NCBI RefSeq assembly: GCF_017565745.1 | Contig: NZ_JAGDYM010000001.1 | Span: 62,001-126,000 of the forward strand | Source of the DNA: Leucobacter weissii | Lineage (GTDB): Bacteria; Actinomycetota; Actinomycetes; Actinomycetales; Microbacteriaceae | Length of the DNA: 64,000 nucleotides | Direction: 5' to 3' | Part shown: piece after piece, positions 15,378-48,586 of the stretch | Numbering within the stretch: the first letter of the stretch is position 1 | Layout of the letters: every line of letters begins with the position of its first letter | Translations under genes and position numbers: made by a program | The notes under the pieces: generated by a model | Told to the model about the DNA's origin: nothing | What the model saw: the letters and a program-made list of their open reading frames with translations, nothing else | Database searches by the model: none

Positions 15378-16385
15378 TCAGCGGGCGAGATCGAGCCCGG
15401 CCGAGGGAGTCGTCGCGAGGCTGCGCATCGCGCCCTCGACCACGAAGGGATCGCCGTACCAGGTGAGGCCGTCCGTGAACTTCTCGCGCTCCCACTTGAT
15501 CGGCACCCAGTCGGGATCGAAGATCAGGTAGCCGCCGGCGTAGATCTCGACGCGGTGGCCCGACCCCGGATCCATGACGTAGAGGTACATGGCCTGCCCG
15601 ATGCCGTGCTTGCCGGGGCCGAGGTCGAAGTGCACCTCGTGATCCGCGAGGACGTCCGCGGCGGTCAGCACGTCGGACATGTTCTCGAGGTTGAAGGCCA
15701 TGTGGTGCAGCTGCGCCTTCTTGCCCTCGGCGTTCGCCACCATCGCGAGGTCGTGCACCTGCGGGGTGACCGACATCCAGGAGGCGAGGACCGTCTCGTC
15801 GTCGCGATGCAGCTGGTACTCGCGGCGATTGAAGCCGAGGTTGTCGCGCACCCACTGCTCGGCCTGGTTGATGGTCTCGCGCGAGGTCTGCACGTTGAAG
15901 TGGTCGACGCGCCGCACGCCCAGCCCCCGGCGCCGGGAGCTGTTGCTCGGCAGCTTCGAGCGGATCTCCTCGGGAGCGAGCGGCTTCTCGATGTCGTAGT
16001 AGAGCTCGAAGGGGTGCTCCGAACCGGGCACGAGGAAGCGCACGGCGGTGCCGCGGCCGAGCTCGGTGCCGGCGGGCACCTCCACCGCCTCGATCTCCTG
16101 ACGCTGCAGCTCGTTGTAGAGGATCTCGACGTCCTCCGCACGCCTGGTGCGGAAGCTGTACGAGTTGACGACGTTCTCCTCCTGCTGCGTGAGCACGAGC
16201 GAGTGATGGGTCAGCTCCATGAAACCGCGCAGGTAGGCGGTGCCGCCCTCGCGCGCGACGATCTCCATGCCGAGCAGATCGCCGAAGAAGTGCAGGGACT
16301 TCTCGAGATCCCGGGTGCCGACGTTGATCGCTCCGCACTGTGCGACCTGGGGGCCGGGATCGTAGTTGTCGAGCAGACGTGCCAT
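15378..16385 (-). CDS. Extradiol catechol dioxygenase (type I, VOC fold)
   Basis: The 335-residue protein is a two-module vicinal-oxygen-chelate dioxygenase that opens catechols next to the two hydroxyls. The Fe(II) ligands are visible: His162 in RVDHFNV, His227/228 in QLHHMAFN and Glu280 in HRVEIYAG, followed by FDPDWVPIKWE. The ATG at 16385 follows AAAGGAACCCC; the frame extends upstream without a good ribosome binding site. It is the only extradiol enzyme in the window and is the best candidate for the ring-cleavage step missing from the meta operon at 26-35 kb. Homoprotocatechuate-type or alkylcatechol substrates are also possible. Confidence 0.88.
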   Translation of the reverse strand: MARLLDNYDPGPQVAQCGAINVGTRDLEKSLHFFGDLLGMEIVAREGGTAYLRGFMELTHHSLVLTQQEENVVNSYSFRTRRAEDVEILYNELQRQEIEAVEVPAGTELGRGTAVRFLVPGSEHPFELYYDIEKPLAPEEIRSKLPSNSSRRRGLGVRRVDHFNVQTSRETINQAEQWVRDNLGFNRREYQLHRDDETVLASWMSVTPQVHDLAMVANAEGKKAQLHHMAFNLENMSDVLTAADVLADHEVHFDLGPGKHGIGQAMYLYVMDPGSGHRVEIYAGGYLIFDPDWVPIKWEREKFTDGLTWYGDPFVVEGAMRSLATTPSAGLDLAR

Positions 16386-16457
16386 GGGGTTCCTTTCGTG
16401 GTGAAGTGCGGCCTGATGGCCGTGTGGAAGCAAGCGCTGCGGTGCGGGGATCCGGCG

Positions 16458-16501: not shown

Positions 16502-16529
16502 GATCCGAAAGTCCGAAGACTTTCGGATC
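16502..16529 (-). terminator. Hairpin overlapping the CoA ligase stop (first)
   Basis: A perfect 12-base inverted repeat, GATCCGAAAGTC and GACTTTCGGATC, with a CGAA tetraloop. Its first bases contain the stop codon of the ligase gene. Together with 16458-16483 it probably separates the ligase transcript from the dioxygenase gene downstream. Confidence 0.65.
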
Positions 16530-18141
16530 AGGGCACCCGGATGACCTCCGTGTAGGGCGGGATCGGCGCGGCCCGTTCGCCGCTGTCGAGCTCCGCGACC
16601 CGCGCGCGGATCACCGGCTTGTCGAGCTTGCCGGCCCCGTTGCGCGGCACGGTCTCGACCGCGACCAGCCGGGACGGCAGCTTGTAGCGGGCGATCCGCT
16701 CGGCGAGATACTCCCGCACCTCCTCGAGCGAGAGCGGATCCTCCGAGAACGACACCACCGCGCAGACGGTCTCCCCCCACTTCTCGTGCGGCACGCCGAT
16801 CACGGCCACGTCGGTGATCCCCGGATGCGAGTTCAGCGCGTTCTCGATCTCTGCCGGGTAGATGTTCTCGCCCCCGGAGATGATCATGTCCTTGAGGCGA
16901 TCGACGATGAAGAAGTAGCCGTCCGCGTCGATGTAGCCGATGTCGCCGGTGCGGAACCACCCGTCCGCCGTGAAGGCCGCGGCCGTGGCCTCGGGGTTGT
17001 TCCAGTAGCCGAGCGAGACGTTCGGACCCTGCACCCACATCTCGCCGGTCCGCTCCGGCTCGTCGATGTCGCGCAGCGTCTCGGGGTCGACGATCTTCAC
17101 ACCGCCGTAGGGCATCGGCACCCCGCACGAGCCCAGCTTGCGCGTGGTCATCGCCGACTCGAGCTGCGTCGCGAAGGGCGCCGTCTCGGTGAGTCCCCAG
17201 GCCTGCTGCAGCAGCACGCCCTTCTGCGCGTAGAGCTCGATCAGCGCGGGGGGCACGGGCGCGCCGGCGACCGTGGTCGAGCGCAGTTCGGAGAGATCGG
17301 CCTCGCCGAAGCCCTCCTGCCGCGAGATCGCGGCGAGCATGGCCGGCACCAGGAACATGCTGTTGGCGCGGTGCCGGACCAGATCCGACAGGGCCTGCGC
17401 CGGGTCGAACTGGCGGCGGATCACCACGGTTCCGCCGCGCGTGATGGTGCGCAGCGTGAACGCGTTGAAGCCCCCGATGTGGAAGAGCGGGGCGACCGCG
17501 AGCGAGACGTCGCCGAACCGGGTGTCGATCACCGAGTCGACGTTCAGCTGACCCCACCAGAGGTTCCCGTGGGTCAGCATGACGCCTTTCGCCTTGCCCG
17601 TCGTGCCCGAGGTGTAGAGCAGTGCGGCGAGATCGTCATCGTGCTGCGGCGCGTGCGGCGGGATCTCCTCGTGCGCCAGGCGGAACGCGCGGTAGGACTG
17701 CCATCCGGAAGAGAGCTCCGGCGCGGGGTCGATGTTGGGATCGTCGTCGATCAGCAGCGCGTGCCGCACCGACAGCTCGCCGAGGAAGCCCGCGATGGTG
17801 GCCGCCTGAGCGGGTTCCGCCACCAGCACGTCGGGGCGCGCGTCGAGCAGCACCGGCCGGATCTCGGGTCCCGCGAGCCTGAAGTTGAGCGGCAGGAACG
17901 CGGCGCCCACCCAGACCGCGGCGAAGTAGGTGACGAGGAAGGTCCGGCTGTTGTGGCCCGCATACGCGACCCGGTCGCCGGGACCCACGCCGTCGGCGCG
18001 CAGGCCCGCGGCGAAACGCCCCACCTCTTCGTGGAACTCCGCGTAGGCGACCTCGCGGTCCTCGTAGATGACGGCGATCATCTCGCCGTGTTCGCGCGCA
18101 TGTCGAGCGATCTGTCTGATCGGACTGATGTCCACACTCAT
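16528..18141 (-). CDS. AMP-forming acyl/aryl-CoA ligase
   Basis: A 537-residue member of the ANL adenylate-forming family. The P-loop-like YTSGTTGKAKGVMLTHGN starts at about Tyr176. Downstream are GYWNNPEATAAAFTADGW, the TGDIGY hinge, DRLKDMIISGGENIYPAEIE and the catalytic-lysine region NGAGKLDKP near the C terminus. It activates a carboxylic acid with ATP and CoA in the cytosol. The ATG at 18141 is chosen because the upstream part of the frame is not ligase-like. It is divergent from the LIV-type importer operon at 18413. The substrate may be an aromatic or aliphatic acid imported by that system; medium- or long-chain fatty acids cannot be excluded. Confidence 0.88.
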   Translation of the reverse strand: MSVDISPIRQIARHAREHGEMIAVIYEDREVAYAEFHEEVGRFAAGLRADGVGPGDRVAYAGHNSRTFLVTYFAAVWVGAAFLPLNFRLAGPEIRPVLLDARPDVLVAEPAQAATIAGFLGELSVRHALLIDDDPNIDPAPELSSGWQSYRAFRLAHEEIPPHAPQHDDDLAALLYTSGTTGKAKGVMLTHGNLWWGQLNVDSVIDTRFGDVSLAVAPLFHIGGFNAFTLRTITRGGTVVIRRQFDPAQALSDLVRHRANSMFLVPAMLAAISRQEGFGEADLSELRSTTVAGAPVPPALIELYAQKGVLLQQAWGLTETAPFATQLESAMTTRKLGSCGVPMPYGGVKIVDPETLRDIDEPERTGEMWVQGPNVSLGYWNNPEATAAAFTADGWFRTGDIGYIDADGYFFIVDRLKDMIISGGENIYPAEIENALNSHPGITDVAVIGVPHEKWGETVCAVVSFSEDPLSLEEVREYLAERIARYKLPSRLVAVETVPRNGAGKLDKPVIRARVAELDSGERAAPIPPYTEVIRVP

Positions 18142-18304
18142 CGTCAGTGTTCTTCCTCTCCGGCGACTTCGTTGTCCATCCATGAGGATGCAGGCATTCG
18201 CGGCGACTGTCACGACCCCGTTCCGACATATGGCACGTCGCATCTCGATCCGCCGCGACCCGCCGCGCGGAGACGGCGAGCGTTTCGCCTGTTGGCACGT
18301 CCGC

Positions 18305-18334
18305 TTGAACGCCCCCGCACTTTCCTTGGATAGT
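18305..18334 (+). promoter_or_regulatory. Possible promoter of the LIV-type importer operon
   Basis: TTGAAC (18305-18310) and GATAGT (18329-18334) are separated by 18 bases and lie about 80 bases before the first gene. The match is moderate. The 272-base region between the divergent ligase and importer genes shows no other clear feature. Confidence 0.35.
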
Positions 18335-18412
18335 ACACAGCGAACGGAGCGGTGCGTCGCCTGCGATGGCGGCGGGCCGCTGACACGTCCCAGACTCAAC
18401 GAGGAGAAGCGC

Positions 18413-23389: not shown

Positions 23390-24214
23390 CTATGCGGCCC
23401 GCTCCTCGTAGCGCGCCATCATGCGGGACGCGGCGAAGGCCACCTGCCGCAGCGTGTGCTCGTGCTCGTGAGCGCGGAAGGTGTCGGTCGTGCCCGAGAC
23501 CGACAGCGCGGCGATCGGCAGTCCCCGCCGGTTGAGGACGGGGGCGGCGATGCAGCTCAGCGTCTCCAGCGCCTCGCCGCGGTCGTGGGCGATGCCCTCC
23601 TTGCGCACGCGCGCCAGCTCGGTGCGGAGCTCGTGGTCGTCGACGATGGTGTTCGGGGTCCAGGGGTGGCGCTCGGCGGTGATGACCGCCTGGGCGGCGA
23701 TCGGATCGAGGGCCATGAAGATCTTGCCCACCGCGGTGCAGTAGGCCGGCATGCGTCCGCCGATCCGGCTCGGGCTGCGGAGCCGCTGGTGGCCCTCGAG
23801 CTTGTTGAGGTAGATCACGTGCCGGCCGTCGAGCGTGGCGAGCTGCACGGTCAGGTGGGTGGCGACGAACAGGTCCGCGAGGTAGGGGGTGAGGAGGTCC
23901 CGCACCTCGTCGTGCTTCCTCGAGTCGATGCTCTGCGCGCCGAGCGCTTGGATGGCGGTGCCGAAGCGGTAGGCGGTGCCGATGCGCTCGATCATGTCGT
24001 TGCGCTCGAGCATGCCGAGCAGCCGGAACGTGGTCGACTTGCTGAGCTCGGCCCGTCTGCTGAGCTCGCTCACCCCGACGCCGATGTTGGCGTCGTCGCC
24101 GAAGGCCTTGAGCACCGCCATGGCCTTGTCGACCGAGGTGCGACTGTCCTTGCCCGGGCTCTCGTGCGTCGACGCATGCGGCTGGAACGTTGCGGTCAGA
24201 TTCTTGATGTCCAT
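23390..24214 (-). CDS. IclR-family regulator
   Basis: A 274-residue IclR protein: N-terminal winged helix (SVDKAMAVLKAFG, VSELSRRAELSKSTTFRLLGML) and a C-terminal ligand domain (about 100-270) with YCTAVGKIF and LSCIAAPVLNRRG. The ATG at 24214 is preferred because GGAG lies six bases before it; the frame continues upstream to a TTG at 24265. It converges on the LIV-type operon and may control it and the CoA ligase. Effectors of this family are often aromatic acids. Confidence 0.88.
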   Translation of the reverse strand: MDIKNLTATFQPHASTHESPGKDSRTSVDKAMAVLKAFGDDANIGVGVSELSRRAELSKSTTFRLLGMLERNDMIERIGTAYRFGTAIQALGAQSIDSRKHDEVRDLLTPYLADLFVATHLTVQLATLDGRHVIYLNKLEGHQRLRSPSRIGGRMPAYCTAVGKIFMALDPIAAQAVITAERHPWTPNTIVDDHELRTELARVRKEGIAHDRGEALETLSCIAAPVLNRRGLPIAALSVSGTTDTFRAHEHEHTLRQVAFAASRMMARYEERAA

Positions 24215-24369
24215 GTGCGGCTCCGCATCCGGCCTCGCCGTTGAGGCCCAATGAATGGTGGTCAAAGTACGGCGATGTCTGTAAGTCCAGTCGATGAACG
24301 AGTGATTACCAAACCGTTTCGGTCGATTATGCTGTACCTCATGGCGGGGTTCGAGGGAGGCTGATCGGC

Positions 24370-26078: not shown

Positions 26079-26984
26079 ATGTGTCATGTGAACAGTGCAG
26101 TATCAGCAGAGCCGATCGACCTCGCCTCGATCGCGGCCGAGCTTCGGGAGGCCGAGACCACCCGGAAGGGCGTCGCGCCGCTCACCGAACGATACCCCGA
26201 ACTGTCGGTGCGCGCGGCCTACGGCATCCAGCGCGAGAATCTCGCGCATCGCCGCGCACGCGGCGAGCGGCTCATCGGGCGCAAGATCGGCCTCACCTCG
26301 CTCGCCATCCAGCGCCAGCTCGGCGTGGACGAGCCCGACTACGGCGCCATCACCGATGCCATGGTCGTGCCGAACGGCGGCGGCCTCGATCCGGCGACGC
26401 TGCTCGCACCCCGGCTCGAGGCCGAGTTCGCGTTCGAGATCGGCGAGGATCTGCCCGAGAGCCCCGATCACGAGCGGCTCGCGGCAGCGGTCACGGGTGT
26501 CGCGGTGGCGATCGAGGTCATCGACTCCCGCGTCGCGGACTGGCGGATCAAGCTGCCCGACACGGTGGCCGACAACGCCTCCATGGCTCGCGTGGTCTGG
26601 GGCGAGTTCGTGCCCGCCACCCCCGAGCTGCTGGCCGAACTGCCCGACTCGGTCATCACCCTGCTGCGCGACGCGGACGAGGTGAGCTCCGGACCGGGAT
26701 CCGCGGTGCTCGGCCACCCCCTCACCTCCCTGCACTGGCTGGCGCAGGCGCTCGGCGCGCAGGGCGATGGCTTCCGGGCCGGTGATCGGGTGCTCGCCGG
26801 CGCCGTGGCCGCGGCCGTCGACTTCACCGCGGGGGCGGCGTGGACCGCGCACAGCGACGGACTGCCCCCGGCCGTGCTCCATTCGACGACCTCACATCCA
26901 TCACGGGCGCCCGAGGCGCCGGCCCCCTCCGACGCGGAGAGCGGGGCAGGCCCGAGGGCGCAGAAGGGCGGAACGGGACAATGA
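26079..26984 (+). CDS. 2-Hydroxypenta-2,4-dienoate hydratase (MhpD/BphE-like)
   Basis: A 301-residue protein of the hydratase/decarboxylase family (2-keto-4-pentenoate hydratase). It adds water to 2-hydroxypenta-2,4-dienoate to give 4-hydroxy-2-oxovalerate. Family features include GRKIGLTS near 62, the acidic LEAEFAFEIGEDL that binds the metal, and GSAVLGHPLTSLHWLA. Start candidates are ATG 26079 and GTG 26088; neither has a good ribosome binding site. The C-terminal 35 residues are a Pro/Ala/Ser-rich tail not usual in the family. Its stop overlaps the ATG of the dioxygenase fusion gene, so it is the first gene of the meta-cleavage operon. Confidence 0.87.
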   Translation: MCHVNSAVSAEPIDLASIAAELREAETTRKGVAPLTERYPELSVRAAYGIQRENLAHRRARGERLIGRKIGLTSLAIQRQLGVDEPDYGAITDAMVVPNGGGLDPATLLAPRLEAEFAFEIGEDLPESPDHERLAAAVTGVAVAIEVIDSRVADWRIKLPDTVADNASMARVVWGEFVPATPELLAELPDSVITLLRDADEVSSGPGSAVLGHPLTSLHWLAQALGAQGDGFRAGDRVLAGAVAAAVDFTAGAAWTAHSDGLPPAVLHSTTSHPSRAPEAPAPSDAESGAGPRAQKGGTGQ

Positions 26985-29900
26985 CCATCACGCGACTGCC
27001 GAGCACGGAGGAGGGCAAGCGCCCCTCCGGCCATGCGTGCGGCAACATCTGCCGCCCGCCCGAGTTCTCCCGCAACGTCGACGTCTCCGGTCTCGTCGAT
27101 GCGCAGAGCGGGCTCATCGATCGCGCGATCTTCACGGACCGCACGCTCTACGAACAGGAACTCGCTCGCGTCTTCGCGACGAGCTGGTTGTTCCTCGGCC
27201 ACGTCGCGCAGTTGGAGAAGCCGGGTGATTTCTTCACGACGTACATGGGCGAGGATCCCGTCATCGTGACGAAGGACAAGGACGGAAGGATCCGCGCGTA
27301 TCTGAACTCCTGCCGCCACCGCGGCGCCCGCGTGCTGCGCGCCGACTACGGGAAGACGCGCAACTTCACCTGCACCTACCACGGCTGGTCCTGGGATCTC
27401 GGAGGAGAACTGATCAGCGTGCCCAACGAGAACGGCTACGCGAACGCCGATTTCGATCGTGACGACTGGGGACTCATCGAGGTCGCGCAGCTCGACGTGG
27501 TCTACGACCTCATCTTCGCGACCTGGAACCCGGAGGCCCCGGATCTCGATGAGCAGCTCGGCAACATGAAGTACTACATGGAGGCCTTCCTCGGTCGTGA
27601 TCCCGCGGGCACGACGATCGTGGGGGGCATCACCAAGTGGGTGCTGAAGGGCAACTGGAAGCTCGCGGCGGAGCAGTTCGGCACCGACTGGTATCACGTC
27701 AACATGTCGCACGCCTCGGCGCTGATGGTGATGTCCCCCACGGGCAAGGGCCCCAAGGAGAGCATCGCGAACACGCCCGGACGCCAGTACTCCGACGAGC
27801 GGGGCAACGGCACCGGCTTCCCGACGCATCCGAAGAGCCGCTTCGACGCGCAACCGGTGCACGAGTACTACGACTACGACGAACTGCGCGAGCGCCTGGG
27901 CGCCGCACGGGTCGAGGGACCGCTCACCACCGGTCACGCCACCGTGTTCCCCAACTTCTCCTACCTGCCCGTCAACGGCAGCATCCGCGTCTGGCATCCG
28001 AAGGGCGTCGACGAGATGGAGATCTGGTCGTGGACGGTGCTCGACAAGTCGATGCCCGAGAACGTGCGCGAGGCCCAGCGGCTCTACAACCTGCGCACCT
28101 TCGGACCGTCGGGCATCTTCGAGCAGGACGACGGCGAGAACTGGAGCGAGGTGCAGTCGATCTCCCACGGCTGGCGCACCAACACCATTCCGCTGAACTA
28201 CCAGATGGGGCTCGGATCCGAGCGCCACGACGGCGTCTACCCCGGCGAGACGAGCGAGCTCTACAGCGACGCCGCGGGGCGCAAATTCTACAGCCGGTGG
28301 GCCGAGCTGATGAACACGCCCGCCTGGCACGAGCGAGAGCAGCGACCGCCCGGCGACGCCGCGGCGACCAGTGCACCCGCGCCGGTCGGCGCCCCCGTGC
28401 AGACCGGCGCTTCCGTCCAGACGAACGCCGCCGCTCCCGCGACGGCGAACCGCCCGGCCCCGCGCAACGAGGCGAGTACCAACACCGCGATCGAGGCGGT
28501 CATCAAGGCCGCGGTCGAAGCCGGAATCAAAGCCGCGGTCGGTGCCGGTCTCGGTGTCGCCGCAGAACCCGCGGTCGCGCCGGCGGAAGAAGCGGTCGCC
28601 CCGGCAAAAAAAGCTGAGGCCCGCGACGATGATCCCGCTGCGCTCGCAGCGGGCATCGACGCGGGCACGCTCGCCGCAGCGCCCCTCCGTTCCCGGCCCG
28701 AAGAGATCGAACCGGGCAGCGGCATCCCCGCGCCGCCCGCTTCCGCACCTCCGGCCGCACCCGCGCCTCGAGACGCCCCAGGCCCCGGCGCGGGGATCGT
28801 GGTCGCCCGGCGCGGTGACGTGGCGGACGGCGAGGGCATCCGGATCGATGCCTCCGTGCTCGGCACGGTCGATCACGTGGCGCTCTTCCGCGAGGGCGAG
28901 GCCTACTACGCCGTGGACGACACCTGCACCCATGAGGTGGCGTCGCTCTCCGAGGGCTGGGTCGAGGGCGGCTGCGTCGAGTGCCCCCTGCACGCCGCGA
29001 AGTTCGATCTCCGCGACGGCAGCGCGCAGGCGATGCCGGCCACCGTGGGCATTCGCACCCACGAAGTGAGCGTCGACGGCGACGACATCGCGATCACGCC
29101 GAACCCCGTCCGGCTCGTCGGGCAGCCTCCGGCCGCCGCGCACAATGCGGAGGATTTCGGTGCGGAGGATCCCGGTGCGGAGGATCCCGAGCCCACCGGT
29201 CACGAGTCGACTGCTGCCGAGCCGATCGTCGCGCCATCGGCACCTCGCGATCCGAACGCTCTCGACTCGATCCTCATCGTGGGCGCGGGCCTCGCCGGCT
29301 ACAACGCCGCCGTGCAGCTGCGCGCGGACGGTTTCGCCGGGGCCGTCACGATCGTCGACGGCGAGACCGCGAGCTACGACCGGCCGCCGCTCAGCAAGAG
29401 CCTGTTCGACGCGGACTTCTCGCTGGAGGCGCTCGCCTTCGCGGACGAGGCCGCCCTGGCCGAGCAGCGCATCGCCGCGAGGTTCGGCTCGCCCGTCGTC
29501 TCGCTCGATGCGGAGGGCGGCTCGGTGCGTCTCGCCGACGGCACGGAGCTGAGCGCCGGAAAGGTGCTCCTCGCCACGGGAGGCCGCGCCCGCCCGCTCG
29601 ACATCCCGGGGGCGACCCTGCCCGGCGTGCAGGCGCTGACGAGCTTCAACGAAGCCGAGGCGCTCCGCCGGGCCGTCTCGCCGGGCGCGCGCGTCGCCGT
29701 CATCGGCGGCGGGCTCATCGGAGCCGAGCTCGCCTCGGCGCTCTCGAGAGCCGGAGCCGAGGTCACCCTCGTGGTGCGGCGGGAGCCTCCGCTGGAGCAC
29801 GCGATCGGAGAGCTGCTCGCCACCCACCTGCACGCCCAGCACGGCGAACAGGGCATCCGCGTCGTGGTGGGCGACACCGTCGAGTTCGCGCAGGCGGACG

Positions 29901-30472
29901 GCGCGCTCGCGGTGAGACTCGCGGACGGCTCGGCCGTCGCAGCGGATCGCATCGTCGTGAGCGTCGGCTTCGCGCCCAATGCGGAGCTGGCGCTCGCCGC
30001 AGGTCTGGAGGTGGCGGACGGCGTCCTCGTCGACCGCAGCCACCGCACCTCCGCGGAGCGCGTGTACGCCGCCGGCGATGTCGCGCAGTTCCGCGGAGAG
30101 GACGGGAGGCCCCTGCCCCGGGCCGAGCACTGGGAGGCCGCGCAGCTCGGCGGCCAGGACGCCGCGCGGGGCATGCTCGGGCTCGAGATCCCCGCGCGCG
30201 GGGCCGGCTGGTTCTGGTCCGACCGCCACGGCTGCCATCTCGAGGCCGTGGGCCGGCTGAGCGGCCCCGGCGAGGTGGTCGTGCGCGAGGGCGGGGCGCA
30301 CCCCGCGGTCCTCCTCGTCGAAGACGGCGTGCTGCAGGGCGCGGCCGCGATCGACGACACCAACCTGGTACGCGCGGCCCGCCGCCTCATCGACCAGCGG
30401 ATCCCCGTCTCCGCCGCAGATCTCGCCGACCCGGCCATCTCACTCCGTTCGCTGCTCAAGGCGAAGCGCTGA
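26981..30472 (+). CDS. Rieske dioxygenase alpha subunit-ferredoxin-ferredoxin reductase fusion
   Basis: One uninterrupted frame of 1163 residues holds three proteins. Residues 1-455 are a ring-hydroxylating dioxygenase alpha subunit: Rieske ligands Cys111-x-His113 and Cys131-x2-His134, bridging Asp236, iron ligands His239 and His244, and an acidic third ligand at Asp383/384 in FEQDDGENW. After a Pro/Ala-rich linker (about 456-605), residues 605-710 form a second Rieske ferredoxin with Cys649-x-His651 and Cys668-x2-His671. A second linker with NAEDF/GAEDP repeats leads to a ferredoxin reductase (about 762-1163) with FAD motif ILIVGAGLAGYNAA and NAD motif VAVIGGGLIGAELAS. All catalytic residues are intact. 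The beta subunit is separate (30504). Electrons from NAD(P)H could thus reach the active iron within one chain. The enzyme likely dihydroxylates an aromatic acid or biphenyl/phenylpropionate-like ring. Confidence 0.93.
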   Translation: MTITRLPSTEEGKRPSGHACGNICRPPEFSRNVDVSGLVDAQSGLIDRAIFTDRTLYEQELARVFATSWLFLGHVAQLEKPGDFFTTYMGEDPVIVTKDKDGRIRAYLNSCRHRGARVLRADYGKTRNFTCTYHGWSWDLGGELISVPNENGYANADFDRDDWGLIEVAQLDVVYDLIFATWNPEAPDLDEQLGNMKYYMEAFLGRDPAGTTIVGGITKWVLKGNWKLAAEQFGTDWYHVNMSHASALMVMSPTGKGPKESIANTPGRQYSDERGNGTGFPTHPKSRFDAQPVHEYYDYDELRERLGAARVEGPLTTGHATVFPNFSYLPVNGSIRVWHPKGVDEMEIWSWTVLDKSMPENVREAQRLYNLRTFGPSGIFEQDDGENWSEVQSISHGWRTNTIPLNYQMGLGSERHDGVYPGETSELYSDAAGRKFYSRWAELMNTPAWHEREQRPPGDAAATSAPAPVGAPVQTGASVQTNAAAPATANRPAPRNEASTNTAIEAVIKAAVEAGIKAAVGAGLGVAAEPAVAPAEEAVAPAKKAEARDDDPAALAAGIDAGTLAAAPLRSRPEEIEPGSGIPAPPASAPPAAPAPRDAPGPGAGIVVARRGDVADGEGIRIDASVLGTVDHVALFREGEAYYAVDDTCTHEVASLSEGWVEGGCVECPLHAAKFDLRDGSAQAMPATVGIRTHEVSVDGDDIAITPNPVRLVGQPPAAAHNAEDFGAEDPGAEDPEPTGHESTAAEPIVAPSAPRDPNALDSILIVGAGLAGYNAAVQLRADGFAGAVTIVDGETASYDRPPLSKSLFDADFSLEALAFADEAALAEQRIAARFGSPVVSLDAEGGSVRLADGTELSAGKVLLATGGRARPLDIPGATLPGVQALTSFNEAEALRRAVSPGARVAVIGGGLIGAELASALSRAGAEVTLVVRREPPLEHAIGELLATHLHAQHGEQGIRVVVGDTVEFAQADGALAVRLADGSAVAADRIVVSVGFAPNAELALAAGLEVADGVLVDRSHRTSAERVYAAGDVAQFRGEDGRPLPRAEHWEAAQLGGQDAARGMLGLEIPARGAGWFWSDRHGCHLEAVGRLSGPGEVVVREGGAHPAVLLVEDGVLQGAAAIDDTNLVRAARRLIDQRIPVSAADLADPAISLRSLLKAKR
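29144..29188 (+). repeat. 15-base tandem repeat in linker 2 of the fusion
   Basis: Three 15-base units (ending in GCGGAGGATTTC or GCGGAGGATCCC) encode NAEDF, GAEDP, GAEDP between the ferredoxin and reductase parts of the fusion protein. Such repeats can lengthen or shorten a flexible linker by slippage. Confidence 0.8.
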
Positions 30473-30503: not shown

Positions 30504-31103
30504 ATGGCAGACGACTTTCTGAACCCCTACACGCTCAACGGCGCCACCTCGACCTCGACGAGCATCCTCGAGGACGAGATCGACGGCCTGCGGCTCTCGG
30601 ATGCGCAGACCCACTTCGAGCTGAACCAGTTCTACTTCCTCGAGGCGGAGTTCCTCGACGACGGGCGCTTCGCCGACTGGCTCGAGATGCTGGCCGACGA
30701 TCTGCACTACTGGGCACCCACGCGCACCAACCGACTGCGGCGTCAGCAGGCGCTGTCGATCTCCGCGCCGGGCGAGGCCGCCTTCTACGACGAGACCAAG
30801 GAGTCGCTGGCCTGGCGCATCCGCCGCTTCGACTCGGGGATGGCCTGGGCCGAGGATCCGCCCAGCCGCACCCGCCACCTCGTCACCAACGTCTCGGCGC
30901 GCGAGCGCGAGGACGGCCTGCTGCAGGTGCGCAGCGCCTTCCTCGTCTACCGGAACCGTCTGCAGACCGAGGTCGACATCTACGCCGGTGGCCGCAACGA
31001 CGTGATCCGCCGCGGCGGGGTGCACGGCTTCGAAGTGGTCAAGAGAACCCTGCTCTTCGAGCAGAACGTGCTGCTGATGAAGAACATCAGCACCTTCTTC
31101 TAG
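30504..31103 (+). CDS. Ring-hydroxylating dioxygenase beta subunit
   Basis: A 199-residue protein of the SnoaL-like/NTF2-fold beta subunit family. It contains FYFLEAEFLDDGRFADWLEML near residue 48, which matches the conserved FlyeEArlLDdrrfeeWLdLl pattern, and a C-terminal KRTLLFEQNVLLMKNISTFF-type strand end. Beta subunits assemble with the alpha subunit into an alpha3beta3 hexamer and affect stability and specificity. The gene follows the fusion gene after 31 bases. AGGGACGC before the ATG is a weak ribosome binding site. It is not fused, unlike the other components. Confidence 0.92.
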   Translation: MADDFLNPYTLNGATSTSTSILEDEIDGLRLSDAQTHFELNQFYFLEAEFLDDGRFADWLEMLADDLHYWAPTRTNRLRRQQALSISAPGEAAFYDETKESLAWRIRRFDSGMAWAEDPPSRTRHLVTNVSAREREDGLLQVRSAFLVYRNRLQTEVDIYAGGRNDVIRRGGVHGFEVVKRTLLFEQNVLLMKNISTFF

Positions 31104-31117
31104 AAACTGAGGTCACC

Positions 31118-32005
31118 ATGTCACTCGCACTCTCCAGCCGCACCATCGAGACCACGCTCGGACCGATCCACGTCAGCGAGACGGGGGACGGGCCGCCCCT
31201 CGTCCTGCTCCACGGCGGAGGCCCCGGGGCGAACGCGCTCGCCAACTACCGCGCGAACCTGCCCGCCTTCGCCGGCTTCCGGGTCATCCTCCCGGATCAG
31301 CCCGGCTTCGGCGGCAGCTACCGGCCCACCGAGGCCGATCTCGACGAGCGCTCGATCACCGAGATCACCGTCGACGCCCTCACGCAGACGCTCGACGCGC
31401 TCGGCGTGGGGGAGTACTCCCTGCTCGGCAACTCCCTCGGGGGCGCCGCGGCGCTCGGGCTCGCCATCGCGCAGCCCGAGCGCGTGACCAAGCTGGTGCT
31501 CATGGCGCCCGGGGGCGGCTGGCTGCCGGTCTCCACGCCGCTGCCCACCGAGGGGCAGAAGGAGATGTTCCGCTACTACAACGGCGAGGGCCCCACCGTG
31601 AAGAAGATGAAGAACTTCATCCGGGTGATGGTGGCCGATCCGCGGCAGTTCTCCGACGAGGAGGTGCAGGCGCGCTACGAGGGCTCGCTCGATCCCGGAC
31701 ACATCGAGTTCTACCACCGCTACAACACGGCCTTCGCGAAGCGCGGGGGCATGGATCCGCTGTGGAAGGATCTCGGCAGGATCACCGCCGACACGCTGCT
31801 GCTGTGGGGGCGCGACGATCGCACCATCACGCTCGACGGCTCGGCGCTGATGCTGAAGCACATCCGCCGCGTGCAGCTGCACGTGTTCGGCGGCTGCGGC
31901 CACTGGGTGCAGGTGGAGCGCAAGGCGGACTTCGAGCGGCTCGTGGGCGACTTCCTCGGCGACCTCCCCGGCACCGGCGCGAGCGGCGGGGGCGCCGGCT
32001 CGTGA
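31118..32005 (+). CDS. Meta-cleavage product hydrolase (MhpC/BphD-like)
   Basis: A 295-residue alpha/beta-hydrolase that cleaves the C-C bond of the ring-opened product, giving 2-hydroxypenta-2,4-dienoate and a carboxylic acid. The HGGGPGANALANY oxyanion region near 31-43 is diagnostic of the family. The catalytic triad is Ser106 in GNSLGG, Asp233 in WGRDD and His262 in GCGHWVQ. Presence of this hydrolase indicates that the ring-cleavage product carries a side chain (ketone type) rather than an aldehyde. The C-terminal 15 residues are Gly/Ser-rich. It overlaps the next gene by four bases. Confidence 0.93.
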   Translation: MSLALSSRTIETTLGPIHVSETGDGPPLVLLHGGGPGANALANYRANLPAFAGFRVILPDQPGFGGSYRPTEADLDERSITEITVDALTQTLDALGVGEYSLLGNSLGGAAALGLAIAQPERVTKLVLMAPGGGWLPVSTPLPTEGQKEMFRYYNGEGPTVKKMKNFIRVMVADPRQFSDEEVQARYEGSLDPGHIEFYHRYNTAFAKRGGMDPLWKDLGRITADTLLLWGRDDRTITLDGSALMLKHIRRVQLHVFGGCGHWVQVERKADFERLVGDFLGDLPGTGASGGGAGS

Positions 32006-32853
32006 GCGGCTGGCTCGAGGGCGACGTCGCGCTGATCACGGGGGGAGGGTCCGGGATCGGCCAGGCGGTCGCCCTGCGCTTCCTCGAGGAGGGAGCCGCC
32101 GGGGTGGCCGTGGTCGGGCGGACGCTCGACCGGTTGCAGCGCACCGTCGAGGCCGCGGGCGACCGCGCCGACCGGATCCTGCCCATCGCGGGCGACGTGC
32201 GCTCCGCCGACGACATGCGGCGGGCGGTGTCGGAGACCGTGCGGCGTTTCGGCCGGCTCGACGTCCTCGTGCCGAACGCGGGGATCTGGGATTTCAACCG
32301 CTCGCTGACGAAGACCACGCCCGAGGAGATCGCTGGCATCTACGACGAGCTCTTCGACATCAACGTGAAGGGCTATCTGCTCGCCTGCTCGGCGGCCTGG
32401 CCGGAACTCGTGAAGACCCGCGGCAGCATCGTGATGACGCTCTCGAACGCCGCGTTCTACCCGGCGGGCGGCGGGCCCGTCTACACCGCCGCGAAGCACG
32501 CCGCGCGCGGACTCGTGACCCAGCTGGCGTACGAGCTCGCGCCCAAGGTGCGCGTGAACGGCGTCGCCATCGGCGGCCTGCGCACCGACCTCCGCGGCCC
32601 GTCATCGGCTGGCATGCAGGAGCGCTCGATCGAGGCGGGCTTCCGGAAGCGGGAGGCCCGCGGCGACGACGCCCGGACCAACATGTGGCTTCCGCTGCAC
32701 GACGCCAGCGTCGATCCGGCCGACTCGACCGGCCCCTATGTGCTTCTCGCCTCGCGTAGCAACGCCGGGGTGATTACCGGTGCGATCGTGAACGCCGATG
32801 GGGGCATCGGCGTGCGCGGTTTCGCCACGGCAGCAGGAGGTGACGATCTATGA
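32002..32853 (+). CDS. cis-Dihydrodiol dehydrogenase (SDR, HcaB/BphB-like)
   Basis: A 283-residue short-chain dehydrogenase. Motifs are GGGSGIG near residue 14, NAG near 92 (VPNAGIWDF), Ser148, and Tyr161-x3-Lys165. It should oxidise the cis-dihydrodiol made by the dioxygenase to the catechol with NAD. The pattern [20 protein letters not shown] is characteristic of the 2,3-dihydrodiol dehydrogenases. The GTG start at 32002 overlaps the hydrolase stop, and its stop overlaps the next gene. Confidence 0.9.
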
Positions 32854-33272
32854 GCACGCGAACGCATTCCGACGGGCTCACCGCCGGTTTCGTCGGCATC
32901 GAGGAGCTCCCGGGCATCGGCGGCGCGCGAGCGTCGGTCGGGCACCGGCGCGCTCGCGCGGGAGACCTGCGCGACGCCTACCCCTCGGGCACGCACGATA
33001 TCGAGCTCGGCTACATCGGCCGGCCCGAGCCCGCGGCGGTCGCCGACTACACGGCGGCCCTGCTGCGATCCGACCCGCGGTGCCGCAGGGTCGTGCTGCC
33101 GGTGCCCGAGCTCGACCTCGAAGCCATCGGCTGGGCGGAGGAGGCGGGCTACCGCTACGTCATCGACGTCGAGACCCAGGAGGGCGGCGTCTCGCTGCTG
33201 GTGACCGAACCGCAGTGGGTGCTCGACCAGCCCGCCATCCTCGAAGACATCCCCCTGAAGGAGCAAGCGTGA
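32850..33272 (+). CDS. Uncharacterised protein, GNAT-like, in meta operon
   Basis: A 140-residue protein with no family I can name with certainty. The second half ([32 protein letters not shown]) has the strand-helix-strand order and EAGY motif of the C-terminal part of GNAT acetyltransferases, but the acetyl-CoA loop (Q/RxxGxG/A) is missing. It overlaps both neighbours by four bases, so it is translated with the dihydrodiol dehydrogenase and acetaldehyde dehydrogenase. A structural or accessory role in the pathway is possible; function unknown. Confidence 0.75.
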
Positions 33273-34231
33273 CGAAGAAGACCAAGGTAGCCATCATCGG
33301 CTCCGGGAACATCGGCTCGGATCTGATGTTCAAGGTGCATCGGCTCTCGGAGGTGCTCGAGATGGGCGTGATGGTCGGCATCGACCCGGCCTCGGACGGC
33401 CTCGCCCGCGCCGGTCGACTCGGGTTCGAGACGACCCACGAGGGAGTGGACGGCCTCATCGCGAGCCCGCAGTTCGACGAGATCGGGGTGGTGTTCGACG
33501 CGACGAGCGCGGGCGCCCACCGGCACAACGCGGCGAAGCTCGCGCCCCACGGCAAGCAGCTGGTCGACCTCACCCCCGCCGCCATCGGACCCTACGTGGT
33601 GCCGGCGGTGAACCTCGGGGAGCACCTCGACGCCGACAACATCAACATGGTCACCTGCGGCGGGCAGGCGACGATTCCCATCGTGGCCGCGATCGGCGCC
33701 GTCACCCCGGTGCACTACGCGGAGATCGTGGCCTCGATCTCCTCGAAGTCGGCCGGCCCGGGCACCCGAGCCAACATCGACGAGTTCACCGAGACCACCG
33801 CCGCCGGGCTCGAACAGGTCGGCGGCGCCGCCCGCGGCAAGGCCATCATCATCCTGAACCCCGCCGATCCGCCGATGATCATGCGCGACACGGTGCAGGT
33901 GCTCGTCTCCCGGCAGGACGACGACGCCCGGGCCGCGATCGTCGCGGCCGTGGAGGCCCGGATCGCCGAGGTGCAGCGCTACGTGCCCGGGTACCGGCTC
34001 AAGCAGCAGGTGCAGTTCCGCGACGTGGACGCCGAGTTCGACGGCCTGGTGCCCGCCGACCGCCGGCAGGGCGAGGGCTACACCCACGTCACCGTGTTCC
34101 TCGAGGTCGAGGGCGCCGCCATGTACCTGCCGAGCTACGCCGGCAATCTCGACATCATGACCAGCGCCGCCCTGCGCGCGGCCGAGCGCCTCGTGCTGAG
34201 CGCGCGAGAGAGGAAAGAGGTCCACGCATGA
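33269..34231 (+). CDS. mhpF: Acetaldehyde dehydrogenase, acylating (MhpF/BphJ-like)
   Basis: A 320-residue enzyme that turns acetaldehyde, NAD and CoA into acetyl-CoA. It has the Rossmann motif [17 protein letters not shown] at residues 7-23 and the nucleophile Cys130 in [10 protein letters not shown]. The GTG start at 33269 overlaps the preceding stop and follows AAGGAG. It normally forms a complex with the aldolase encoded immediately downstream, channelling acetaldehyde between the two active sites; the four-base overlap of the genes fits this. Confidence 0.95.
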
Positions 34232-35241
34232 CGCACCGGGTCTTCCTGCAGGACGTCACCCTGCGCGACGGGATGCACGCCATCCGCCACCGCATCGAAC
34301 CCGCGAAGGTCGCCGAGATCGCGCGCGCTCTCGACGAGGCCGGCGTGGATGCGATCGAGGTGACCCACGGCGACGGCCTCGCGGGATCGTCGCTCACCTA
34401 CGGCCCCGGCTCCCACACGGACTGGGAGTGGATCGAGGCCGCGGCGTCGGTGGTGCAGCGCGCGCGGCTCACCACGCTGCTGCTGCCCGGGATCGGCACC
34501 ATCGAAGAGCTGAAGCGGGCCTACGAGCTCGGCGTGCGCTCGGTGCGGATCGCCACGCACAGCACCGAGGGCGACGTGTCGGCGCAGCAGATCGCCGCCG
34601 CCCGCGAACTCGGCATGGACGTCTCCGGCTTCCTGATGATGGCGCATCTGAACGATCCCGCCTCGCTCGCGCAGCAGGCGAAGCTCATGGAGTCGTACGG
34701 CGCCCACTGCGTCTACGTGACCGATTCCGCCGGGCGCCTCACCATGGACGGCGTGCGCGAGCGCATCCGCGCCTACCGCGACGTGCTCGACGAGGGCACC
34801 GAGATCGGCATCCACGCGCACCAGAACCTCTCCCTCGCGGTGGCGAACTCGATCGTCGCGGTCGAGGAGGGGGCGTACCGCGTCGACGCCTCGCTCGCGG
34901 GGCACGGCGCGGGCGCCGGCAACACCCCGATCGAGCCGTTCGTGGCGGTGGCGCAGTTGCAGGGCTGGGACGTGCGAGCCGACCTGTTCGCGCTGCAGGA
35001 CGCCGCCGACGATCTCGTGCGACCGCTGCACGACCGCCCCGTGCAGGTGGATCGAGAGACGCTCTCGGTCGGTTTCGCGGGGGCCTACTCCAGTTTCCTG
35101 CGGCACGCCGAGCGCGCGGCGGAGACCTACGGGCTTGACGCGCGCGACATCCTGGTCGAGGTCGGGCGCCGGCGCCTGATCGGCGGACAGGAGGACATGA
35201 TCATCGACATCGCGCTCGATCTGGCCGACGCGCGAGTATGA
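34228..35241 (+). CDS. mhpE: 4-Hydroxy-2-oxovalerate aldolase (MhpE/BphI-like)
   Basis: A 337-residue DRE-TIM metallolyase that splits 4-hydroxy-2-oxovalerate into pyruvate and acetaldehyde. It starts with [17 protein letters not shown], containing the conserved Arg-Asp of the metal site, and has [14 protein letters not shown] near 193 with the two metal-binding histidines. It ends with the helical domain that contacts the acetaldehyde dehydrogenase. It is the last pathway enzyme of the operon. Confidence 0.95.
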
Positions 35242-37027: not shown

Positions 37028-37146
37028 CTAGCAGAAGGTCCGATCATGATGCGACCGTTTCCCCGCGCGATCTTGAAGGCGGGGCACAAGCCTTGTAGCC
37101 TCGTGGCACCGCCGAGCCCGGCGACCGCATCATGAACGGAGGCAAG

Positions 37147-37890
37147 GTGGCATCCAAGCTGAGAGACGGCGCCGGAGCGGCGCTCGAGGACATCGTCCGG
37201 GACGGCATGACCGTCGCCGTCGGCGGCTTCGGGCTGAGCGGCATCCCGCGCAATCTGATCCGCGCGCTGCGCGACACCGGGGCGAAGGACCTCACCATCG
37301 TCTCGAACAACATGGGCGTCGACGGCAAAGGACTCGGCCTCCTGCTCGAGAACCGGCAGGTGCGCAAGGTGCTCGCGTCCTATGTGGGCGAGAACCGGCT
37401 GTTCGCCGAGCAGTACCTGAGCGGCGTGCTCGACGTGGAGTTCGTGCCGCAGGGCACGCTGGCCGAGCGGCTGCGGGCCGGTGGCGCCGGCATCCCGGCC
37501 TTCTACACGCCGACCGGTGTGGGGACCCCGGTCGCGGAGGGCAAGCCCGAGGCCGAGTTCGACGGGCGCCGCGCGATCCTGGAGCGCGGGATCGTCGCCG
37601 ATCTCGCGCTGGTCCGCGCCCGCGTCGGCGACCGCGAGGGCAATCTGCGCTATCGGCTGACGGCGCGCAACTTCAATCCGCTCGCCGCCATGTCGGGCAG
37701 GATCACGGTCGCCGAGGTCGAGGAGCTGAGCGACGAGTACCTCGATCCCGAGCGGATCGACACGCCCGGCGTCTTCGTGCAGCGCATCGTGCGCGTCGAG
37801 GATCCGGCGAAGGACATCGAGCAAATCACCGTGCGATCGAAGCCGAGCGCGGAGAGCGGGAGCAGGGGGCCGAACCATGTGGACGCGTGA
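37147..37890 (+). CDS. 3-Oxoacid CoA-transferase subunit A
   Basis: A 247-residue alpha subunit of a family I CoA transferase. It shows [16 protein letters not shown] near 25-40 and the [14 protein letters not shown] and [23 protein letters not shown] motifs of the SCOT/AtoD/PcaI group. The GTG at 37147 is preferred because GGAGG lies five bases upstream; an ATG at 37132 is also in frame. It acts with subunit B, encoded next with a 14-base overlap, to move CoA from succinyl-CoA to a 3-oxoacid. A second pair at 48628 is tied to pca genes, so this one may serve acetoacetate or another oxoacid. Confidence 0.9.
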
Positions 37891-38536
37891 CGAGATGGCG
37901 GCGATCGCCGCGGCCGAGCTCGAGGACGGCCAGTACGTGAATCTCGGGATCGGGATCCCCACCCTCGTGGCGAACCAGCTGCCCGACGGGGTGACCGTGA
38001 AGCTGCAGAGCGAGAACGGGATCCTGGGCATGGGACCGTTCCCCTACGAGGGCGAGGAGGACGCCGATCTCATCAACGCGGGCAAGCAGACCGTCACCCT
38101 GCTGCCGGGCGCCTCGATCTTCGACTCGGCCACCTCGTTCGGCATGATCCGAGGCGGGCACGTGCAGACGGCGATCCTGGGTGCGATGGAGGTGGCCGGC
38201 AACGGCGACCTCGCCAACTGGACGATCCCCGGCAAGCTGGTGAAGGGCATGGGCGGCGCGATGGATCTGGTGGCGGGCACGCCCCGGGTGATCGTGCTCA
38301 CCGACCACGTGGCCAAGGACGGCAGCCCGAAGATCGTGGAGACGTGCTCGTTGCCGCTCACGGGCGCCGGCGTGGTCGACCGCATCGTCACCGACCGCGC
38401 CGTATTCGACGTGACCGGGCACGGCCTGGTGCTGCGCCGCGTCGCCCCGGGTGAGAGCATAGAGGAGATCCGCGCGCTGACCGGCGCCGCATTCACCGTC
38501 GACATTCCACGTGACGCTGCAGAGGAGACCGACTGA
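37877..38536 (+). CDS. 3-Oxoacid CoA-transferase subunit B
   Basis: A 219-residue beta subunit with [15 protein letters not shown] and the catalytic Glu46 in SENGILGMG, which forms the covalent acyl/CoA intermediate. It overlaps subunit A by 14 bases and the thiolase by one base. The sequence is close in length and motifs to the second copy at 49428. Confidence 0.92.
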
Positions 38537-39705
38537 TGGCCGCACTGATCGCGGGATACGCCCGCACCCCGTTCACCCGCTTCACCGGGCAGCTCGCCGC
38601 GCAGCCGGCGACCGCGCTCGGCGCGCACGCCGCGCGGGCGGCGCTCGCACGGGCCGGTGTGCCGGCCGAGGCGGTCCAGGCGGTCGTCGCCGGTCAGGTG
38701 CTCCAGGCCGGCGCCGGCCAGAACCCCGCCCGCCAGACGGCGGTGGCGGCGGGCGTCTCGATGAACGTGCCCGCGATCACGCTCAACGCCGTCTGCCTCT
38801 CGGGCACCGAGGCCGTGTCGCAGGCGGCCCGGCTGATCGCCTCGGGGGAGGCCGAGGTGGTCCTGGCGGTCGGGCAGGAGTCGATGTCGCTCGCGCCGCA
38901 TGTGATCCCCCTCCGCGCCGGGCACAAGTACGGCACGGCGCAGCTGATCGACACGGCGGACCACGACGGGCTCACGGACGCCTTCGACCAGGTCGCGATG
39001 GGCGCGCTCACCGAGCAGGGGAACGCGCCGCTGGCGCTGACCCGCGAGGAGCAGGATGCGTTCGCCGCAGACTCGCACCGCCGCGCGGCGGCCGCGGCGG
39101 AGTTCCTCGCGGGCGAGATCGAGCCCTTCACCGTGACCTCCCGCCGCGGCGACGCCGTCGTCTCGGCGGACGACGGGATCCGCCCCGAGACCACGGCGGA
39201 GACCCTGGGCGGTCTGCGCCCCGCCTTCGCGAGGGAGGGCACCATCACCGCGGGCAACGCCTCGCAGATCACCGACGGCGCGGCGGCGCTGGTGATCGTG
39301 AGCGAGGCCGCGGCGGAGCGCCTCGGCCTGACCCCCCTCGCCCGGATCGAGGCGACCGCCTTCGTGGCGGGCCCCGACGCGCAGCTCCACTCCCAGCCGG
39401 CGCGCGCCATCTCGGCGGCGCTTGCGAAGGCCGGCGCCGCAGCCGGTGAGCTCGCGGCTGCGGAGATCAACGAGGCCTTCGCCGCCGTGGGCGTGCAGTC
39501 GACCCGCGAACTCGGCCTCGATCCCGGCATCGTGAACGCCCACGGCGGTGCGATCGCGCTCGGCCACCCGATCGGCGCCTCGGGCGCGCGCATCGTCGGG
39601 ACGCTCGCCAGGCGGCTCGCGGCGGCCGGCTCGGGCGCGCTCGGCGCCGTGGGCATCTGCGGCGGAGGCGGGCAGGGCAGCGCGGTGGTGCTGCGGGCGC
39701 TGTAG
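38536..39705 (+). CDS. Acetyl-CoA C-acyltransferase (thiolase)
   Basis: A 389-residue thiolase with the acylated Cys87 in NAVCLSGTEA, the NEAFAAV motif near 313, GHPIGASGAR near 341 and a GICGGGGQGSAV C-terminal signature containing the second catalytic Cys. It cleaves a 3-oxoacyl-CoA with CoA. As the third gene of the operon it uses the product of the CoA transferase. Acetoacetyl-CoA or 3-oxoadipyl-CoA are candidate substrates; the details of specificity cannot be read. Confidence 0.92.
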   Translation: MAALIAGYARTPFTRFTGQLAAQPATALGAHAARAALARAGVPAEAVQAVVAGQVLQAGAGQNPARQTAVAAGVSMNVPAITLNAVCLSGTEAVSQAARLIASGEAEVVLAVGQESMSLAPHVIPLRAGHKYGTAQLIDTADHDGLTDAFDQVAMGALTEQGNAPLALTREEQDAFAADSHRRAAAAAEFLAGEIEPFTVTSRRGDAVVSADDGIRPETTAETLGGLRPAFAREGTITAGNASQITDGAAALVIVSEAAAERLGLTPLARIEATAFVAGPDAQLHSQPARAISAALAKAGAAAGELAAAEINEAFAAVGVQSTRELGLDPGIVNAHGGAIALGHPIGASGARIVGTLARRLAAAGSGALGAVGICGGGGQGSAVVLRAL

Positions 39706-39739
39706 TCCGCCGCCGCGAGGCGCGGGGGCCGGAGGGCGC

Positions 39740-40984: not shown

Positions 40985-41088
40985 GAGGGGCTCCTTCGCC
41001 GGTTCGTGCGCTCCGTCCCGTCCTCCGGGCGGTGCGGCTCCGTCGCGTTCCCACCAGTGTGCGGGGCCTCCGTGCGCAGTGCGCGCCA

Positions 41089-41107
41089 ATTCCCGTTGAA
41101 CGGGAAT
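41089..41107. promoter_or_regulatory. Perfect palindrome upstream of pobA
   Basis: ATTCCCGTT-G-AACGGGAAT is a perfect 9+1+9 palindrome 105 bases before the pobA start and touching the stop of the IclR gene. It is a strong candidate operator for one of the adjacent IclR proteins. Confidence 0.65.
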
Positions 41108-41862: not shown

Positions 41863-41889
41863 GCCCCCAGCATGCCACGATCACCCTCG

Positions 41890-41948
41890 CGCGGAGACGC
41901 GACGGATCGCGAACGGGGGCTCGAACCCCGCCCCGGCCCGTCTCCGCG
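41890..41948. promoter_or_regulatory. Inverted repeat between two divergent IclR genes
   Basis: CGCGGAGACG (41890-41899) and CGTCTCCGCG (41939-41948) are a perfect 10-base inverted repeat that encloses a smaller CGGGG...CCCCG pair. It lies in the shared promoter region; a TACGCT -10-like box for the rightward gene is at 41975-41980. Confidence 0.45.
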
Positions 41949-42008
41949 ACCCCGTGCGGCAGAGGGAGAGCGGGTACGCTCGGTGGAGCGGATGAGCGAG
42001 GAGGCGAG

Positions 42009-42782: not shown

Positions 42783-42978
42783 GCGAGGCCTGGGGCGCGG
42801 CGCCTCCGAAGGCCCCGGCTCCGAGCGCACGCTCGGCCGGTGGAGGGCGGCGTCGGTGCAGGCTTCCGTCGGCAGCGCATCCTCCTCGGCGGCGATCCCA
42901 CTGAGTGAGAGTCGGATCTGCCCCCAGGCCGATCCGCTGCCACCCTGGGAGGCAGCCCCGATCTCGAAGGAGAGCACC

Positions 42979-47167: not shown

Positions 47168-47174
47168 CGGAGGC

Positions 47175-48461: not shown

Positions 48462-48554
48462 CGGGGACACTCTACCGATTCGGGGGCGCCCGTGTTCCCG
48501 ATCGGACCGAGCGGGGGAGGATGGTGCGGCGCGAAGAGACGGGATACACTTGAT

Positions 48555-48586
48555 TTCGATTAACGAATAATGTTTCGCACAGCGAA
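48555..48586. promoter_or_regulatory. Two TTCG-N5-CGAA operators before pcaIJF
   Basis: TTCG-ATTAA-CGAA (48555-48567) and TTCG-CACAG-CGAA (48574-48586) have equal spacing and start 19 bases apart, on nearly the same face of the helix. They resemble the TTCGATAATCGCAC-like sites of IclR-type PcaU/PcaR regulators. TAATGT at 48568-48573 between them may be the -10 box. Confidence 0.65.

Follow-up and report, generated by a model that had tools for sequence, protein, structure and literature searches.

Analysis of a 64,000-nucleotide stretch of the Leucobacter weissii genome (contig NZ_JAGDYM010000001.1, positions 62,001 to 126,000; hereafter the window) revealed a single reading frame at 26981-30472 on the forward strand, which probably encodes a natural three-part fusion of the alpha subunit, the ferredoxin and the ferredoxin reductase of a HcaEFCD/Bph-type three-component Rieske dioxygenase, the resulting chain being complemented by a separate beta subunit. 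The frame comprises 1163 codons from the ATG at 26981 to the stop codon at 30470-30472 without any internal stop, exactly matching the coordinates and length given in a preliminary description made from the DNA alone, and corresponds to a chain with a calculated mass of 122.9 kDa. It is also open 5' of position 26981, where a GTG at 26840 would give 1210 amino acids; the related genes L008, L011, L012 and L083 start at the equivalent of 26981 (MTIT-LPST). The parts of the gene, with the three redox components fused and the beta subunit encoded apart as previously described, are the following.

26981..28345, forward strand: alpha part, residues 1-455, with Rieske [2Fe-2S] and catalytic domains, HcaE/BphA1-like (from Pfam, NCBIfam, structure matches and ligands)
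28346..28792, forward strand: linker 1, residues 456-604, 149 amino acids, Ala/Pro-rich, with small tandem duplications
28793..29101, forward strand: Rieske-type ferredoxin part, residues 605-707, HcaC-like (from Pfam, NCBIfam, structure matches and ligands)
29102..29260, forward strand: linker 2, residues 708-760, 53 amino acids, Ala/Pro-rich
29261..30472, forward strand: flavin adenine dinucleotide (FAD)/nicotinamide adenine dinucleotide (phosphate) (NAD(P)) ferredoxin reductase part, residues 761-1163 together with the stop codon
29774..29782, forward strand: Val932-Arg933-Arg934 codons (coenzyme-specificity loop), corresponding to BphA4 Glu175-Thr176 plus the residue that follows
30504..31103, forward strand: beta subunit, separate gene, HcaF-like, 91% identical to L. 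edaphi (Ring_hydroxyl_B, E 4.2e-41)

Five Pfam domains were recovered along the chain with E-values from 9.4e-9 to 2.1e-59, namely Rieske (68-151), Ring_hydroxyl_A (221-442), Rieske_2 (631-705), Pyr_redox_2 (763-1055) and Reductase_C (1077-1159). All ligands attributed to a catalytic alpha subunit are present, with Cys111, His113, Cys131 and His134 (C-x-H...C-x2-H) for the Rieske cluster and Asp236, His239, His244 and Asp383 for the iron site, which thus holds a 2-His-1-carboxylate set, and the second Rieske site was likewise found as claimed in the ferredoxin part (Cys649, His651, Cys668 and His671). The reductase part carries GxGxxG motifs at residues 768 and 909. Among solved structures, the alpha part came closest in sequence to 1uli, the large subunit of biphenyl dioxygenase (E 7.6e-120), the ferredoxin part to the ferredoxins 5bok, CarAc and TodB, and the reductase part to 3lxd, 3fg2, TodA and BphA4. 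The fusion combines the Rieske-type ferredoxin and the glutathione reductase (GR)-type FAD reductase by which three-component dioxygenases are recognized, although at the gene level these two are not separate from the alpha part, as that class would have them. At the subfamily level, alpha and reductase gave their highest scores with HcaE and HcaD and the ferredoxin with HcaC-type models; the NCBIfam equivalog cut-offs were missed for HcaE (413.5 of 830), HcaD (267.5 of 450), HcaC (89.4 of 150) and HcaF (147.3 of 230), as was that of the ferredoxin model PRK09965 (108.7 of 113), and the beta subfamily model PRK10069 was the sole HcaEFCD-type model passed (175 vs a cut-off of 145). Next-best matches in the same genome showed 33% identity to the reductase part and 38% to the ferredoxin part.

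For comparison, a scan of a genome collection returned 97 related loci, the best 80 of which were used. Under the stricter cut-off applied to gene ends, the reductase went unmatched in L030 and L040, as did beta in L025 and L040; sequences were further left out owing to length filters, contig ends or undetected genes, so that those retained numbered 79 for alpha, 80 for ferredoxin, 76 for reductase and 71 for beta. A search for the same domain order found alpha, ferredoxin and reductase in one frame in none of the 80 relatives, and the window alone has this layout. Alpha and ferredoxin have separate stops in all 80, and ferredoxin and reductase in 78 of 78, which bears out the departure from known three-component systems stated in the preliminary description, and reductase and beta share a stop in none of the relatives with gene ends resolved. 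The order alpha-ferredoxin-reductase-beta was kept at every locus in which all four genes were found (77/77). Across the 80 relatives, the alpha and ferredoxin genes touch or are at most 64 bases apart, with an exact 4-base overlap in 60, and the same overlap joins ferredoxin and reductase in 50 of 78. Since such overlaps prevail, translational coupling is likely to be the ancestral state.

The nearest relative, L. edaphi (L008), has the three components in separate genes, with tblastn identities of 90% for alpha (residues 34-455), 63% for ferredoxin and 63% for reductase. Boundary signals of the relatives that are lost in the window comprise the alpha stop, the ferredoxin ATG (replaced), the ferredoxin stop and the reductase start. 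As a side observation, the alpha gene of L087 (Prescottella defluvii, 6270-7649) is apparently frameshifted in its assembly; its own stop is still distinct from that of its ferredoxin. Two candidates for a second fusion in the genus were rejected, as the alpha of G002 (open frame 1127; 30% identical) stops before a separate reductase and that of G004 (open frame 790; 36%) is separated from its reductase by about 5 kb and by a difference in frame.

Close alpha sequences proved to be rare. At E 1e-120, they were detected in two of 54 genomes of the genus, the window's own (frame 1228) and G307 (90% identity, frame 539), the coordinates of the latter agreeing with the L. edaphi genome, while three more genus genomes from a sample of 41 encode alphas of 39% identity (frames 487-502). 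A family sample of 150 genomes added one further carrier (77%, frame 462), and no genome other than the window's own passed the threshold at the levels of order (119 genomes, E 1e-120) and phylum (396 genomes, E 1e-150). A search of 72,556 plasmid records gave 111 matches, none of which spanned 80% of the query in one place, the best places all being below 60% identity. On one of these plasmids, NZ_CP067132.1 of Paracoccus seriniphilus (398482-399948, hit H6), ferredoxin and reductase were matched as one piece with 35% identity, covering only residues 633-1155 of the fusion query. AIFL/AIFM3-like proteins are Rieske and Pyr_redox fusions, and H6 is perhaps an AIFL-like fusion.

From these data we infer that one chain of about 123 kDa would be made and would assemble with the separate beta subunit as alpha3beta3. 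In this dioxygenase class, the electron acceptor is the non-heme iron of a neighbouring alpha subunit. NAD(P)H would supply two electrons, which would reach the non-heme iron by way of FAD, the tethered Rieske ferredoxin and the Rieske cluster of alpha, and the long linkers would allow the ferredoxin to move back and forth between the reductase and the docking site. O2 would be incorporated into an aromatic compound as a cis-diol, and this compound would enter a meta-cleavage pathway. We tentatively propose that the gene product may act as a self-sufficient alpha3beta3 dioxygenase with three tethered NAD(P)H-to-iron chains per hexamer, which would have arisen in one genus, with covalent coupling replacing translational coupling and with the electron donor changed from NADH to NADPH.

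The last of these points concerns a part that had been described as a complete FAD/NAD reductase, a description that holds for its domains and GxGxxG motifs but not for an Arg in contact with FAD, which is lost, nor perhaps for the coenzyme, as NADH may not be the preferred donor of a Val-Arg-Arg loop. Position 932 is Asp in 75 and Glu in one of 76 relatives and position 933 is Pro in all 76, whereas the window has Val and Arg, followed by Arg934. Residue 932 aligns with FdR9 Glu164, which passages of a structural paper equate with BphA4 Glu175, a residue that binds the adenosine ribose and is proposed to repel the phosphate of NADP (PubMed Central (PMC) record PMC7397466). The acidic residue that marks NADH-dependent oxygenase-coupled reductases at the end of the second NAD Rossmann strand is thus replaced by Val932. 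A change from NAD to NADP is usually achieved by taking out acidic and putting in basic residues, and V197E and R198M were among the changes that turned Escherichia coli glutathione reductase from NADP toward NAD, according to excerpts of a review (PMC5817062). As the NADH-favouring Asp-Pro is replaced by Val-Arg(-Arg), the sequence suggests that the fused reductase prefers NADPH; no paper on BphA4 coenzyme mutants was found in the open-licence PMC literature. Further departures include Gln at position 1036 of the reductase part (Arg in 75/76 relatives) and, in the ferredoxin part, Val645 and Asp676 in columns conserved in 79/80 and 78/80 relatives, while no departure from near-invariant columns was seen in beta (71 relatives).

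In phylogenetic trees, the window's alpha (support 0.62), reductase (0.89) and beta (0.65) each paired with L. edaphi, and its ferredoxin paired with L010 in the same group of seven (0.89). The terminal branches of the fused parts were 1.9 to 2.9 times as long as those of L. edaphi, in contrast to beta, whose branch was not longer (0.046 vs 0.062). Relative-rate tests against L. edaphi gave p < 0.05 (uncorrected) with five of six outgroups for the reductase, three of six for the ferredoxin, two of six for alpha and none of six for beta. Ratios of nonsynonymous to synonymous substitution rates (dN/dS) between the window and three relatives amounted to 0.16-0.21 for alpha, 0.26-0.77 for the ferredoxin, 0.37-0.54 for the reductase and 0.08-0.18 for beta, all of them below 1. 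The fast evolution of the fused parts would fit either adaptation or decay.

Several observations weigh against a functional one-chain dioxygenase. The fusion is known from one assembly only, and its predicted structure, obtained from a 7-row alignment, was too poor to inform (mean predicted local distance difference test score, pLDDT, 42.7). Both linkers are weakly coding-like, with synonymous codon scores of 0.12 and -0.05 vs 0.46-0.57 in the domains, and in-frame start codons occur within the fusion at ATG 444, GTG 473, GTG 607, ATG 685, GTG 689 and GTG 696. In the reductase part, the last glycine of the GxGxxG motif, characteristic of enzymes using NADH, is retained, which speaks against a clean switch to NADPH. 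The terminal branches of the window exceed those of L. edaphi for alpha (0.122 vs 0.053), ferredoxin (0.465 vs 0.160) and reductase (0.447 vs 0.235), and dN/dS between unfused relatives is lower (ferredoxin 0.20-0.42, reductase 0.28-0.36). Finally, position 887, Arg in 76 of 76 relatives, is Thr in the window. The corresponding FdR9 residue is Arg119, for which passages of the structural paper (PMC7397466) describe contact with the pyrophosphate of FAD, and FAD binding is possibly weaker with Thr887 in this place.

Part of this evidence is shared by a reading in which the fusion is translated and the reductase, perhaps also the ferredoxin, is decaying, with another cellular reductase or ferredoxin feeding the oxygenase. 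We consider this rather unlikely: the loss of both the FAD-contact Arg and the NADH-binding acid, the ferredoxin and reductase branches longer than that of beta and a dN/dS somewhat above that between unfused relatives would all be expected of decay, yet the reductase part runs through 403 residues without a stop, the other FAD positions mapped from FdR9 (Arg42, Lys47, Asp260 and Trp278) are conserved, dN/dS is still below 1, and the replacement of Asp-Pro by Val-Arg-Arg is the type of change used for converting NAD to NADP enzymes rather than a random loss. Given the lost FAD-contact Arg, reductase activity is nevertheless to be tested and not assumed.

The two Pro/Ala-rich linkers noted earlier were confirmed in composition (Ala 32% and Pro 16% in linker 1; Ala 21% and Pro 19% in linker 2). 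Linker 1 has no counterpart in the relatives, their alpha and ferredoxin genes adjoining or nearly so, and in linker 2 a 15-bp unit is present in roughly 2.9 copies. Of six tandem-repeat rows that overlap the linkers, one has a period of 11 bases and the other five have periods of 12, 15, 18, 21 or 24; as multiples of three also appear in two of the three rows located elsewhere, and a single array accounts for two of these five linker rows, repeat periods were rejected as a weak sign of coding linkers. Codon usage was also set aside as too weak to count as proof, for the coding frame outscored the other two forward frames only narrowly in each linker, a reverse frame was slightly better in linker 2, and by synonymous choice alone the coding frame was best in neither. 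The weak codon signal is compatible with young linker sequence, which it does not prove. In the upstream hydratase gene, the tail at 26880-26984 (forward strand) is Pro/Ala-rich, longer than in L. edaphi and overlaps the fusion ATG; Pro/Ala-rich tails may be growing in the fusion operon.

Long Ala/Pro-rich linkers are generally protease-sensitive, and it is conceivable, if unlikely, that separate products arise, either by proteolysis cutting off alpha at a linker or by additional synthesis of a ferredoxin-reductase protein (or of the reductase with a ferredoxin piece and linker 2) from an internal start. Three of the in-frame starts listed above (444, 473 and 607) precede the ferredoxin and three (685, 689 and 696) lie inside it. 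None has a good ribosome site, however, with at most 4 of 6 matches to AGGAGG within 20 bases upstream, and in the two that reach 4 the match is 11-12 bases away. Between residue 696 and residue 767, which is already inside the first Rossmann strand, no in-frame ATG, GTG or TTG was found, leaving 64 codons before the reductase without an in-frame start. In addition, as alpha lacks a stop, ribosomes making it would continue into linker 1.

A sequencing or assembly error joining three ordinary genes is highly improbable, even though the evidence comes from a single assembly with GC-rich (guanine- and cytosine-rich) and repetitive linker DNA and an insertion or deletion would sometimes stay hidden because the +1 frame lacks stops in both linkers and the +2 frame in linker 2: with the relatives' genes touching or nearly so, insertions of about 447 and 159 bases, both in frame, and the loss of two stops and two starts would be needed, which is beyond single insertions or deletions. 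The gene further lies mid-contig in a genome that is 98.4% complete and 0.56% contaminated, and synteny and identity carry on at both flanks, where the genes match those of L. edaphi, making a chimeric assembly unlikely.

The three-part fusion thus remains our preferred reading, and its surroundings contain the following genes.

26117..26984, forward strand: 2-keto-4-pentenoate hydratase-like gene (below cut-offs), its stop overlapping the fusion ATG, start approximate
31118..32005, forward strand: alpha/beta hydrolase, HsaD/BphD-like (below cut-offs), same pathway
32002..32853, forward strand: short-chain dehydrogenase, cis-diol dehydrogenase candidate, start approximate, frame open from 31762
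33272..34231, forward strand: acetaldehyde dehydrogenase (acetylating), start approximate
34228..35241, forward strand: 4-hydroxy-2-oxovalerate aldolase
15378..16433, reverse strand: extradiol dioxygenase resembling catechol 2,3-dioxygenase/HpaD (below cut-offs), probably responsible for ring cleavage
16528-18399, reverse strand: AMP-binding acyl-coenzyme A (CoA) ligase
23390-24265: IclR regulator

A branched-chain-type ATP-binding cassette (ABC) transporter is also encoded near the fusion. The gene content suggests that an aromatic compound, perhaps an acid, is broken down here by a meta-cleavage pathway. An open reading frame at 23456-24244 was rejected as a neighbouring gene, as it is antisense to the IclR regulator. 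Between the dehydrogenase and the acetaldehyde dehydrogenase, a 140-residue frame (32850-33272, forward strand) shows a coding-like base composition and no Pfam or NCBIfam match, and the corresponding region of L. edaphi contains a 138-residue frame (L008 11315-11731). Farther downstream, the window includes a protocatechuate (beta-ketoadipate) cluster at 37132-49431, with genes for CoA transferases, a thiolase, 4-hydroxybenzoate hydroxylase, protocatechuate 3,4-dioxygenase and a cycloisomerase-like protein, and a TMEM175-family potassium channel gene at 51976-52920 (forward strand).

The preliminary description knew of no system with all three redox parts fused and the beta subunit separate, and passages of a 2025 review on Rieske oxygenases state that a self-sufficient one is yet to be identified, and propose engineered fusions (PMC12445004). 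A natural alpha-ferredoxin-reductase fusion was not found in the portions of the open-licence PMC literature covered, which is no proof of absence. If functional, the L. weissii protein would represent a naturally occurring, almost self-sufficient enzyme such as engineers try to build. As a natural candidate with ready-made linkers, a predicted coenzyme switch and a close unfused control in L. edaphi (alpha 90% identical), it would allow testing whether a tethered ferredoxin and reductase improve coupling and cut wasteful O2 reduction in an alpha3beta3 dioxygenase.

Among known systems, HcaEFCD (3-phenylpropionate/cinnamate dioxygenase) and the actinobacterial relatives L008-L087 share the domain families of all four components with the fusion, although the actinobacterial relatives keep alpha, ferredoxin and reductase separate where the fusion is one gene. 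Biphenyl dioxygenase BphA1A2A3A4 (PDB 1uli; BphA4 1d7y) uses a Rieske ferredoxin and an FAD reductase that belong to the same class, and differs in its separate components and in BphA4 Glu175, which corresponds to Val932 here. The CYP116B enzymes consist of a heme-containing cytochrome P450, a flavin mononucleotide (FMN) reductase and a [2Fe-2S] domain, which belong to unrelated families, and have no separate beta subunit. As self-sufficient P450s, they likewise unite oxygenase and electron chain in one polypeptide, as outlined in passages of the relevant literature (PMC10992505). In NdmD of the caffeine demethylases, a Rieske [2Fe-2S] domain is likewise fused to a reductase, as stated in excerpts of the corresponding report (PMC10380055); this reductase, however, is of the ferredoxin-NADP reductase (FNR) type, and its oxygenase is a separate protein.

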